A stretch of 64,000 bases of DNA, from positions 124,001 through 188,000 of the forward strand of contig NZ_WJIE01000005.1 of assembly GCF_009649845.1 (NCBI RefSeq). Direction: 5' to 3'. Within the stretch, counting starts at the first letter, position 1. Every line of letters starts with the position of its first letter. The notes beneath the pieces are model-generated. The model had not been told where the DNA came from and ran no database searches. It worked only from the letters and a program-made list of their open reading frames with translations. Origin of the DNA: Polyangium spumosum. Lineage in GTDB: Bacteria > Myxococcota_A > Polyangia > Polyangiales > Polyangiaceae. A program made the position numbers and the translations under genes. Below are positions 31,095 to 34,187 of the stretch, one piece after another.

Positions 31095-33041
31095 TCAGGG
31101 CGTCACGGTTTGTCCGAGATAACGCGCCGGATCGATCGCCTCGCCATTGTCGCGCACCTCGAAGTGCACGTGCGGCCCCCCTTCGGGCGTGCCGACCTCG
31201 CCGATCGCAGCCCCGCGCGTCACGGCCGCGCCAGGTCGCGCCTTCACGTTCGTGAGGCCGCGATATCGCGTCTCGATGCCGCGGCCGTGCGCGAGGACGA
31301 GCACGGGCTCGCCTTTCGAGCTCTGCTCGATACGCTCGACCGTCCCGTCGAGGGGCGCGAGCACCACCGTCCCGGGCGCCGCCGCGAGGTCCACGCCCTG
31401 GTGCAGGACATGGGGCTGTTTGGGCGCGGTGTCGCCAAAAGCCAAGGTCACGCGGGCGCCGGGGAGCGGGTGGGCCGAGCGGGAGGCCACCTTGCCGCGC
31501 ACGCGCTCGCGCCAGGTGTCGTACGTCGCGGAGCGCGCCGCGTGGCGCTCGTTCCACATGCCGGTGGCGAGGGCGCGGTACGTCTCGGTCTCCTCGGAGA
31601 GCTCGGCCTTTCCGTCGAGCCACGCGCGCACGCGGCTCTCGCCGCCGTTGTACGCCGCGGCCGAGAGCTCGAACGCGCGCGCCGGGTCTTTCTTGCCAAA
31701 CTCGGCGAACTGCTTGCCGAGATACGAGGCGCCGAGCTCGAGGTTGTAGGCCGGATCGAGCAGGCGCTCGTCCGCGTGATCGGTGATGCCGAGCTCCCCG
31801 GCGACCAGGCTCGCGGTCCGGGGCATGAGCTGCATCAGGCCGAGGGCGCCGCTCGGGCTCTTGGCCTTCGGATCCCCGCACGACTCGACGAGCGTGAGGA
31901 TCGCGATGGCCTCGGGATCCACGTTGCCCTTGCGCGCGGAGGCGGCGATGGCCGATTCCCAGCGCGCGATGGCGGGAGGGAGCCAGGGAATGCCGAGCGC
32001 GGCGGCCTCTGTTTGCGCGGCCGTGACGCTCGGCTTCTCCGCGGCGGGCGGCGGCTCTCCCCCGCAAGCGGCGAGGGTGGCGAGGGCGAGGCCGAGCGTG
32101 CTCGCGAGCGCGAGCGCGGGCGCGGCGAGGGCGCGGCTCGTGGGCGGCTGGGGCGTGGTGCCATCGATCAGACGTCGAATTCTCATGACGAGCGAACCTC
32201 CATTCGAGCCGAGCGCGAGCTCGGGCGTACGTGCGCGCATCCCCTCGAGCGCGGCGAGGGCGCGGGCATAACGGACCGGATCCCCGACGGCCGCGACGGC
32301 GTCGTCGTCGCAGAGGTGCTCGCGCTCTCTCCGGGCGACACGAGAGACCCAGTGGACGGCGGGGTGATAGAACAACGCTGCCTCGACGATCGATTGCAGG
32401 ATGTTCGTGAGGAAATCGAACCTGCGCACGTGCGCGAGCTCGTGCGCGAGCAGGGCGGAGAGGCAAGACGGCGAAAGGTCGGTGAGCGCATAGAGGGGCA
32501 CGAGCACGACGGGCCGGAGCCAGCCGATGACCATGGGCACGTCCACGCGATCGGAGGCGAAGAGCCGCACGCCCTCCCGGACGCCGAGGCGCCGCGCGAG
32601 TTTGTCGAAGCGCACCTCGAGCGCCGAGGAGACGGGCATCGTGTGGTGCCGGATCAAGCTCGAGAGGCGCAGGAGACCCACGGCGAGGCGGGCCGACATG
32701 AAGAGCGCGCCGGCGCTCCAGGCCATGACGACGATCGCGGGCCAAAGAGGCGGCGCGCTGGCCTCCGCGGAGGCGGAGAGCAAGGCAAAGGCGTTCGGCG
32801 GGACGAACGGTACGGCCGCGAAGGATGCGTGAAAATAGGCGAACGTGACGGGCGGCGCGAGCGCCATGAGGGCGAGCGCGGCGCAGGCGGCCGTGTAACG
32901 CGCGGCGGCGTGGCTGCGCGGCAGGCTCGAGAGGGTCGCGGCGAGGAAGAGGGCGATCACCGCGCCCTGCCAGAGGAAATGGAGGAGCGCGAGCCCGAGC
33001 GCCGCGACGAACGGCGAGGTGGCGAGCGTGGCGAGGTTCAT
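31095..33041 (-). CDS. BlaR1-like M56 metalloprotease fused to lytic transglycosylase and M23 endopeptidase domains
   Basis: 648 residues. Residues 1-130 hold the first membrane helices. The M56 protease has HELAH (200-204) and EHLCDDDA, as in BlaR1/MecR1. A hydrophobic segment at 304-325 matches the last BlaR1 helix. It ends in LAAC (326), which looks like an internal lipobox. Where BlaR1 has a penicillin-binding sensor, this protein has a lytic transglycosylase domain (catalytic E386 in LTLVESCGD, SGALGLMQLMP, AAAYNGG). An M23 domain with zinc ligands HQGVD (547-551) and HVH (624-626) follows; the usual mid-domain YxHL reads YRGL. It is translationally coupled (4 bp) to the BlaI-type repressor. 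The inference is that peptidoglycan state is sensed by cutting or binding it and relayed by repressor cleavage. Confidence 0.9.
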   Translation of the reverse strand: MNLATLATSPFVAALGLALLHFLWQGAVIALFLAATLSSLPRSHAAARYTAACAALALMALAPPVTFAYFHASFAAVPFVPPNAFALLSASAEASAPPLWPAIVVMAWSAGALFMSARLAVGLLRLSSLIRHHTMPVSSALEVRFDKLARRLGVREGVRLFASDRVDVPMVIGWLRPVVLVPLYALTDLSPSCLSALLAHELAHVRRFDFLTNILQSIVEAALFYHPAVHWVSRVARREREHLCDDDAVAAVGDPVRYARALAALEGMRARTPELALGSNGGSLVMRIRRLIDGTTPQPPTSRALAAPALALASTLGLALATLAACGGEPPPAAEKPSVTAAQTEAAALGIPWLPPAIARWESAIAASARKGNVDPEAIAILTLVESCGDPKAKSPSGALGLMQLMPRTASLVAGELGITDHADERLLDPAYNLELGASYLGKQFAEFGKKDPARAFELSAAAYNGGESRVRAWLDGKAELSEETETYRALATGMWNERHAARSATYDTWRERVRGKVASRSAHPLPGARVTLAFGDTAPKQPHVLHQGVDLAAAPGTVVLAPLDGTVERIEQSSKGEPVLVLAHGRGIETRYRGLTNVKARPGAAVTRGAAIGEVGTPEGGPHVHFEVRDNGEAIDPARYLGQTVTP

Positions 33042-33424
33042 TTCGACTTCTTTCGCTCGATGTCGTCGAGGAGCGCGCGGATCTCGGCGAGCTCCTCGCG
33101 GGAGGCTCGCTCGCTCGAGAGCGCGCGCAGGACGAGCCGCGACGCGGAGCCGCCGAACGCCTTTTCGACGAGCTCGTGCACGAGGCCGCGTTGCGCCTGC
33201 TCCTCGGGGATCATGGCCCGATACACGTGGCTCTTGCCCGCCTCGTCCCGCTCGACGAGCCCCTTCTGGGCCATGATCTGCATGAGCTTGAGCACCGTCG
33301 TGTACCCCGTGCCCTGGACGGGCCTGAGGTCCTCGTGGACCTCACGCACCGTCGAGGGGCCGCGGCGCCAGAGGACGCGCAAGATCGCGAGCTCCGCGTC
33401 CGTGGGGAGCGACCTGTTCACCAT
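33038..33424 (-). CDS. BlaI/MecI-family transcriptional repressor
   Basis: 128 residues from ATG 33424; upstream codons are not supported. The winged helix is clear: LPTDAELAILRVLWRRGPSTVREVHEDLRP, GTGYTTVLKLMQIMAQKGLVERDE, KSHVYRAMI. The C-terminal helices mediate dimerisation. In the classical pathway the M56 partner inactivates the repressor by cleaving it. Its gene directly precedes the M56 fusion and overlaps it by 4 bp. The palindrome at 33437-33452 is the likely autoregulatory operator. No beta-lactamase gene is in the operon. Confidence 0.93.
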   Translation of the reverse strand: MVNRSLPTDAELAILRVLWRRGPSTVREVHEDLRPVQGTGYTTVLKLMQIMAQKGLVERDEAGKSHVYRAMIPEEQAQRGLVHELVEKAFGGSASRLVLRALSSERASREELAEIRALLDDIERKKSK

Positions 33425-33436
33425 GGCCCCATGATG

Positions 33437-33452
33437 TACGAAGTTCTTCGTA
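33437..33452. promoter_or_regulatory. Likely BlaI operator TACGAA-N4-TTCGTA
   Basis: A perfect 6+6 palindrome, AT-rich in context, 12 bp upstream of the BlaI-type start codon. BlaI/MecI operators share TAC...GTA half-sites; the spacing here is compatible. Confidence 0.7.
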
Positions 33453-33563
33453 GATGTCAAGCGGAGCGCAGCATCATTTCCGCGCCGCCCGGCCGCGGCC
33501 CCCTCTTGTGCTGACCGTCCGTTCATGCCAAACAGCGGGGCCCAGAGGGAGGTTACCGATCAC

Positions 33564-34187
33564 ATGGCCATCACGTTTTATTACTCGCCGTACTCCAGCG
33601 CGGTTCGCACGCATTGGGCGCTCGAGGAGCTCGGCATCCCGTACGAGGGGATCCGGCTGGATCTGAAGGCGGGCGATCAGAAGAAGCCCGAGCTCCTGAA
33701 GCTGAACCCGAACGGCAAGGTCCCGACGCTCGTCGTCGACGACGTGCCCTATTTCGAGTCCGCGGCGATCAACATTCTCCTCGGAGAGAAATACGGCGTG
33801 GACAAGGGCCTCTGGCCCAAGGCCGGCACGCCCGCGCACGGGCGCGCGATGTCGTGGACGGTGTGGGCCGCGGCGTCGCTGCTCTCGGCCGGGACGCGGG
33901 TCATGTACAATACGTCGCCGGAGGCCCCGGAAGAGCAAAAGAATGCGGCGCAGGGCGAGGCCGCGCGCAAAGAGTTCGACGGGCTGCTCGACCTGCTCGA
34001 CGCCGAGCTCAAGGACAAACCCTACCTGACCGGGGATACGTTCACGCTGGCGGACGCGCTCCTCGCGGCCGATCTGTGGTGGTACCAGATGGTGATCGTG
34101 CCCTCGCTGGCCCGCTGGCCCCACCTGCAGGCGTGGGTGGGCCGCTGCATGGAGCGGCCGGCCTTCAAGCGCGTCTCGGCGGGCTGA
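33564..34187 (+). CDS. Glutathione S-transferase family protein
   Basis: 207 residues from ATG 33564, with GAGGGAGG upstream. The N-terminal thioredoxin-like domain has the catalytic-type Ser in YYSPYSSAVRTHWALEELG, the cis-Pro GKVPTLVV, and the ESAAI glutathione site. The C-terminal helical domain has LTGDTFTLADALLAADLWW. It should be a cytosolic dimer conjugating or reducing with glutathione. Convergent with the short LysR gene. Confidence 0.9.
   Translation: MAITFYYSPYSSAVRTHWALEELGIPYEGIRLDLKAGDQKKPELLKLNPNGKVPTLVVDDVPYFESAAINILLGEKYGVDKGLWPKAGTPAHGRAMSWTVWAAASLLSAGTRVMYNTSPEAPEEQKNAAQGEAARKEFDGLLDLLDAELKDKPYLTGDTFTLADALLAADLWWYQMVIVPSLARWPHLQAWVGRCMERPAFKRVSAG

Follow-up and report, generated by a model that had tools for sequence, protein, structure and literature searches.

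The BlaR1/BlaI and MecR1/MecI systems of Staphylococcus and Bacillus combine an M56 gluzincin core, four predicted membrane helices and an outer C-terminal domain in one protein, with a neighbouring BlaI-type repressor and an operator-like dyad in the promoter. Here we analyse a locus that appears to follow this plan in a 64,000-nucleotide stretch of the Polyangium spumosum genome (NCBI RefSeq assembly GCF_009649845.1, contig NZ_WJIE01000005.1, positions 124,001 to 188,000 of the forward strand; hereafter the window), in which a blaI-type gene adjoins a fusion gene for M56, SLT lytic transglycosylase and M23 domains. The fusion differs from BlaR1 and MecR1 in carrying SLT and M23 domains and no penicillin-binding domain. 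We propose, with evenly balanced confidence, that it is a membrane lytic transglycosylase with a BlaR1-type receptor as its scaffold, autoregulated and sensing by means of its own catalytic domain.

Related pairs and architectures have been described. PetP/PetR of Synechocystis, a BlaR1-family protease with a BlaI-family regulator, resembles the present pair in serving a signal other than beta-lactams; unlike it, PetP/PetR is presented in passages of a commentary (PMC7896320) as a copper and electron-carrier switch with different target genes, and these passages describe no outer domain for PetP. Passages of a review (PMC9662197) place M23 with M56 in one protein among architectures that make up <1% of hits, and state that M56 has yet to be shown to take part in cleaving peptidoglycan. 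Those proteins share M56 and M23 with the fusion, and the same passages make no mention of SLT, genomic context or function. No M56-SLT protein was found among the literature matches listed, subscription papers and preprints lying outside the coverage. The remark in a preliminary description of this locus, that no described system with this architecture was known to its author, holds for M56-SLT among those matches and needs qualifying for M56 with M23.

A lytic transglycosylase domain in the sensor position of a BlaR1-type protease

The fusion gene (31095..33041, minus strand) encodes 648 residues and is kept at full length in 6/6 Polyangium genomes, which rules out an assembly artefact. Its three Pfam matches all exceed the curated cut-offs: Peptidase_M56 at residues 98-268 (32238..32750, minus strand; 1.6e-24, 87 bits against a cut-off of 31), SLT at residues 365-482 (31596..31949, minus strand; 6e-24) and Peptidase_M23 at residues 547-638 (31128..31403, minus strand; 4.4e-22). 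The M56 zinc site is formed by HELAH at residues 200-204 with E241 as third ligand, and H200, E201, H204, E241 and D245 are invariant in all 16 aligned fusions (16 of 20 entered this alignment). An AlphaFold2 (AF2) model was built from 16 of the 20 fusions (mean predicted local distance difference test score, pLDDT, 81; predicted template modelling score, pTM, 0.48), in which the predicted single domains can be relied on, but not how they are arranged relative to one another. When superposed on the cryo-electron microscopy structure of BlaR1 (8exs), the M56 part of the model gives a Z of 19.8 with a root-mean-square deviation (rmsd) of 3.7 over 246 aligned residues, and a profile of this part retrieves BlaR1 chains by sequence (1.7e-15). 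Together with the Penicillinase_R match of the partner given below, these results bear out the preliminary description, which had seen a BlaR1-type M56 protease with a BlaI partner and had proposed the domain search.

The outer domain carries E386 (codon 31884..31886, minus strand) as the Glu of an ES...GAxGLMQ motif, and both this catalytic Glu and GLMQ are kept in 20/20 fusions. Among solved structures, the SLT part matches MltC (Z 17.6, rmsd 2.7, 151 residues aligned) and Slt (Z 17.0, rmsd 3.2, 146 aligned). In motif, catalytic Glu and fold the domain is a member of SLT, presumably of family 1, and the earlier assignment of a lytic transglycosylase domain with catalytic E386 to the sensor position stands. 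The six Polyangium species yield similar ratios of nonsynonymous (dN) to synonymous (dS) substitution rates for M56 and SLT (dN/dS 0.25 for each), indicating similar constraint.

Four membrane helices are predicted in the AF2 model at residues 10-39, 45-76, 100-132 and 302-326. All four coincide with hydropathy peaks, and their orientation follows from homology only. The fourth (TM4; 32064..32138, minus strand), located by the AF2 model and a hydropathy and motif scan, ends in LAAC with C326 (at 32064-32066). The SLT part starts ~25 residues further on, after a linker of low confidence in the model, so the new domains do follow the fourth predicted helix as had been claimed. By analogy with BlaR1, the protein likely lies in the inner membrane with its M56 zinc site in the cytoplasm and its SLT domain in the periplasm.

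Although the fusion would operate like BlaR1/BlaI, it is not classed as BlaR1 because it fails the defining sensor-domain test: Pfam yields no match to Transpeptidase, the SxxK-type sensor, at E 0.01. The fusion scores 66.5 bits against a cut-off of 400 for the NCBIfam BlaR1 equivalog. Identity as a beta-lactam receptor was rejected for lack of the transpeptidase domain. M56-Transpeptidase proteins do exist in the same bacterial family (L022, L023).

A single operator-like dyad at the fusion operon

The palindrome TACGAA-N4-TTCGTA (33437..33452), noticed already in the preliminary description, lies 12 bp upstream of the blaI ATG and is kept in 6/6 Polyangium genomes, in each of which it sits between the -35 and -10 positions. 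In P. spumosum these were assigned by eye as TTGACA (33455..33460, minus strand), itself kept in 6/6 Polyangium genomes, and a -10-like TACATC (33433..33438, minus strand), 16 bp from the -35 hexamer and overlapping the edge of the dyad.

Genome-wide scans for the dyad covered exact and one-mismatch sites. P. spumosum has no such site in its 10.76-Mb genome apart from this dyad, and a reversed control pattern also occurs once. The exact dyad is found once per genome in 9/10 fusion genomes searched, always upstream of blaI at the fusion operon; the tenth (G098) has two one-mismatch dyads upstream of blaI, and G031 has one extra tandem copy with one mismatch. In f13, another family of the same class, the dyad near blaI is exact at 6/10 loci, has one mismatch at 3/10 and two at 1/10.

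A broad BlaI regulon was considered and rejected, off-operon one-mismatch sites in the ten fusion genomes being at control level (27 versus 28 for the reversed pattern). Two of these sites are each found in a pair of species (G086/G089 and G085/G087), and the first pair was inspected. Of the 27 sites, eight were examined, and each falls within an open reading frame (ORF) of >=100 codons; as an argument against a broad regulon this is weak, because GC-rich DNA often contains ORFs of this length by chance, and they also span 9/10 of the blaI-site loci. Since the sole exact dyad lies at its own operon, the recognisable regulon would be the operon itself and the signalling protein would be the protein made, so that sensor and output look like one protein. 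The dyad noticed earlier is operator-like and lies inside the promoter, and the earlier view of a cell-wall integrity sensor is revised: with its own operon as the sole recognisable target, the fusion is probably the output as well, and does not stand apart as the sensor of a stress regulon.

These observations suggest a regulatory loop. BlaI would repress both blaI and the fusion gene by binding the one dyad between -35 and -10, as its position and conservation suggest. In the fusion, placed in the inner membrane by the model and by BlaR1 homology, with the protease site facing inwards and the transglycosylase outwards, the SLT domain would be a working transglycosylase that engages glycan strands, activity being expected from its conserved catalytic residues. 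Altered substrate engagement (fewer or altered strands, or a blocked cleft) would be relayed through TM4 to the protease, which would inactivate BlaI and so yield more of the same fusion protein. Sensor and regulated enzyme would then be one polypeptide, with M23 as an accessory part that probably binds and, in P. spumosum, probably does not cut.

The same receptor core, an intact SLT domain and an output that is apparently the SLT protein itself would also suit a sensor for drugs that mimics their target. Here the SLT domain would detect lytic transglycosylase inhibitors such as bulgecin, much as the PBP-like (penicillin-binding protein-like) domain of BlaR1 detects beta-lactams, and the induced fusion would add transglycosylase. 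Bulgecin A targets Slt enzymes, according to PMC5372988. However, a housekeeping role would explain the presence of the fusion in 6/6 Polyangium genomes equally well or better, and we consider a dedicated drug sensor very unlikely.

As to the surroundings, the three neighbouring genes scanned with Pfam include no beta-lactamase or PBP gene. Both flanks of the fusion locus are syntenic in 3/3 species checked. A glutathione S-transferase gene (33525-34187, plus strand) diverges from blaI and is syntenic in 3/3 Polyangium loci checked. Intergenic DNA beyond the blaI promoter is mostly not conserved in the Polyangium alignment, and the divergent gene is an unlikely second target of BlaI.

The partner repressor and its proposed cleavage

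The blaI-type gene (33038..33424, minus strand) overlaps the start of the fusion gene by 4 nt and encodes 128 residues from the start that is common to its relatives, which was the one chosen. Its product matches Penicillinase_R (1.5e-28, 99.9 bits against a cut-off of 22.6), and the S. aureus BlaI and MecI chains (1sd4, 1okr) match it by sequence.

In S. aureus, BlaR1 cuts BlaI between Asn101 and Phe102, a Phe called almost invariant in the passages concerned (PMC9834060). The P. spumosum repressor differs from that of BlaR1/BlaI in missing this P1' Phe, the aligned pair being R100-A101. A Leu follows directly after the P1' position in 20/20 fusion-linked BlaI proteins, and cleavage may possibly occur one residue further on. 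Because the Phe of the known site is missing, we only infer that signalling proceeds by BlaI cleavage.

The missing cleavage residue would also fit a feedback by products, in which muropeptides freed by SLT and M23 enter the cytoplasm and inactivate BlaI directly, with M56 only assisting. This fragment route deserves serious consideration, since BlaI of Bacillus licheniformis is inactivated by a peptidoglycan dipeptide: in passages of PMC3305447, gamma-D-Glu-m-A2pm frees BlaI from its operator and BlaR1 is proposed as the maker of the dipeptide. The reported affinity for the dipeptide is millimolar, however, and in S. aureus BlaR1 is described as cleaving BlaI directly without other components (in passages of PMC9834060). 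Moreover, M23 is missing from 11/20 fusions and probably impaired in P. spumosum. We hold product feedback to be rather improbable.

Outer parts beyond the transglycosylase domain

M23 enzymes bind metal through their HxxxD and HxH motifs, and those of LytM type use the YxHL His in catalysis. H547, D551, H624 and H626 are present in the P. spumosum M23 domain, and the ligands H547, D551 and H626 are found in 9/9 M56-SLT-M23 proteins. At position 595 P. spumosum has Gly (H595G; codon 31257..31259, minus strand), in contrast to the YxHL His of the other 8/8 M56-SLT-M23 proteins. The M23 part of the model matches the EnvC LytM domain (Z 18.8, rmsd 1.9, 126 residues aligned), DipM (Z 18.3, rmsd 2.3, 140 aligned) and LytM (Z 16.5, rmsd 2.0, 122 aligned).

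Sequence change in this domain is concentrated in P. spumosum. Among columns where the other five Polyangium fusions (85-87% identical to the P. spumosum protein) agree, P. spumosum alone is changed at 16 of 101 in M23 compared with 17 of 379 in M56 and SLT (Fisher p 2.5e-4), and at 6 of 38 in the TM4 linker, the same share as in M23. The M23 column counts were taken from an alignment with the Woeseiaceae rows correctly placed, since the automatic counts misaligned them. For M23, M56 and SLT, respectively, dN/dS is 0.381, 0.254 and 0.247 between P. spumosum and the other five species, and 0.166, 0.248 and 0.243 within those five. A faster M23 across the genus is ruled out by its six-species dN/dS of 0.255, which is at the level of M56 and SLT. 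Because the excess lies on the P. spumosum side only, where M23 dS is also higher (0.364), and because the linker behaves alike, the constraint on M23 in P. spumosum reads as relaxed, not gone.

These results suggest that the P. spumosum M23 domain is probably impaired and no longer cuts, and that M23 is probably an accessory part with a binding role. The preliminary description had spoken of two peptidoglycan hydrolases. Both domains are present, and conservation was found for E386 and the M56 zinc site; calling M23 a hydrolase was an overstatement for P. spumosum, which has lost the YxHL His.

The state of M23 also bears on whether the fusion is a pure sensor, with SLT and M23 kept only to bind peptidoglycan and signalling without cutting. 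The loss of the YxHL His and the lower constraint on M23 in P. spumosum speak for this, and EnvC LytM domains, which are non-catalytic activators, rank among the top structural matches of M23. The sensor of BlaR1 is itself an enzyme-like domain used as a receptor. Retention of the SLT catalytic Glu and GLMQ in every fusion is nevertheless more than binding alone demands, and we regard a pure sensor as unlikely.

A further feature of the outer part is the end of TM4, which resembles a lipobox. LAAC or IAAC stands there in 7/9 M56-SLT-M23 proteins. A looser form is found in 7/10 M56-SLT proteins (strict form 0/10), compared with 7/78 other M56 proteins (strict form 3); the rows are related, so that these counts are not independent. 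In several Myxococcota M56 proteins, SLT-bearing or not, the last residue of TM4 is a Cys preceded by Ala (LAAC, VPAC, PSAC), like a lipoprotein signal.

If the TM4 end were a lipobox or signal-peptidase site, the SLT-M23 part could be cut off as a separate lipoprotein whose amount is set by M56 and BlaI. The enrichment of the motif in the fusions favours such a released hydrolase, as do the lipoprotein-like signals seen by eye at the start of four unfused SLT relatives (L106, L107, L108, L109). In S. aureus, signal peptidase sheds the BlaR1 sensor by cutting after Gly331, at the equivalent position (in passages of PMC9834060). Against this, the motif is missing in both Woeseiaceae members and in 3/10 M56-SLT proteins, the strict pattern fits none of the ten, and the Cys, shared by several non-SLT M56 proteins of the same phylum, may be lineage-bound. 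We consider such a released hydrolase very unlikely. Combined with autoregulation, release would give a self-sensing cell-wall enzyme in which receptor, protease and effector are one polypeptide: the intact SLT domain would read glycan strands or blocking drugs (bulgecins) and induce its own replacement, and the hydrolase part, once made, could be freed as a lipoprotein by way of the TM4 lipobox. This fuller version is conceivable but doubtful.

Occurrence and ancestry of the fusions

M56-SLT fusions were found in at least 20 genomes, nine with M56-SLT-M23 and eleven with M56-SLT without M23, and blaI adjoins the fusion at 20/20 loci; the earlier proposal to look for the same architecture beside BlaI is borne out in this way. 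M56-SLT-M23 is present in the 6/6 Polyangium genomes, in another Polyangiaceae genus (G031) and in two Woeseiaceae metagenome-assembled genomes (L042, L043), and M56-SLT without M23 in G098 and ten f13 genomes. Judged from these sequences, SLT is the constant outer part of the fusions and M23 the optional one. A single fusion of the 20 is split, into two M56-bearing ORFs (L159).

By sample, fusions occur in 8/108 genomes of the family, 15/288 of the class and 2/196 of the order of Woeseiaceae. The match spans M56 and SLT in 10/377 Myxococcota genomes. Among 398 Pseudomonadota genomes the one case is the Woeseiaceae query centre itself, and the other 9 matches end by model position 338. The samples overlap and most were drawn from larger groups, with the best few candidates per genome scored (usually 3 to 11), and the fusion counts are lower bounds.

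A quick M56 tree of 97 rows, from which L164 (HExxH not found), L159, fragments and duplicate loci were excluded, scatters the fusions. This scatter is untrustworthy because a tree holding 19 fusions together scores 16.6 log units better than the free tree (approximately unbiased, AU, test, p-AU 0.692). A single fusion clade is likewise not rejected by SLT (p 0.269; 21 fused rows, with the P. spumosum sequence present twice as L001 and L100) or by M23 (p 0.106) in the AU test. The idea that Woeseiaceae and myxobacteria assembled the fusion independently was set aside, as the scatter that suggested it is not borne out by the AU comparison; single and multiple origins both fit.

Five unfused SLT relatives group with the fused SLT domains (support 92/83). 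The nearest unfused relatives (L016-L019, L106-L109) mostly have a lipoprotein-like start, and no BlaI or M56 was found in the stretches around their genes. Like Slt70/MltC-type transglycosylases, these Polyangiaceae proteins share the SLT domain and catalytic Glu with the fusion; in contrast to the fusion, neither group was found to have a protease or repressor attached or, in the stretches around the genes, nearby.

The P. spumosum genome yielded just one further BlaI-M56 pair (L102, C5:115700-119700), which lies outside the window. Its M56 protein has 654 residues and an outer part without a Pfam match at E 1e-4, and branches a long way from the fusion in the M56 tree.

Discussion

The fusion system is real, conserved and well bounded, and its function is inferred. 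Several points weigh against the proposal of an autoregulated transglycosylase with its own catalytic domain as sensor. Sensing and catalysis by the outer part are both predictions. At the position of the known BlaI cleavage site, the P1' residue is Ala in 19/20 and Val in 1/20 fusion-linked repressors. One fusion locus (L158) has only a two-mismatch dyad, and further BlaI targets with >=2 mismatches are possible. Because the same dyad (<=1 mismatch) stands near blaI in 22 of 50 other, non-SLT BlaI-M56 loci (L045-L096; 28 are without it), it appears to be an operator type of a BlaI subfamily and nothing specific to SLT. Finally, the outer domain may serve something other than sensing, because many M56 proteins carry other outer domains: among 46 members selected as being without SLT and M23, TonB_C occurs in 16, GWxTD in 5, Transpeptidase in 2 and Peptidase_S11 in 1.

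The 22 dyad-sharing loci come from Acidobacteriota, Planctomycetota, Verrucomicrobiota, Pseudomonadota and others, and have widely differing non-SLT outer domains. One M56 protein with Peptidase_S11 (D-Ala-D-Ala carboxypeptidase) and another with an LpoB/CsgG-like outer domain (L047) are further candidates for cell-wall-related receptors.

The distinctive point of the P. spumosum system is that sensor and output are apparently the same protein. Antibiotic sensing is the role for which BlaR1-type receptors are chiefly known; the fusion instead bears an apparently working cell-wall enzyme outside and seems to control nothing but its own expression. It would offer a one-operon system for studying how a Gram-negative cell measures and adjusts its transglycosylase activity, and for asking whether SLT inhibitors are sensed as beta-lactams are. 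It would also be one case of a more general arrangement: BlaI-M56 pairs, many of them with one common operator type, carry exchangeable outer domains.

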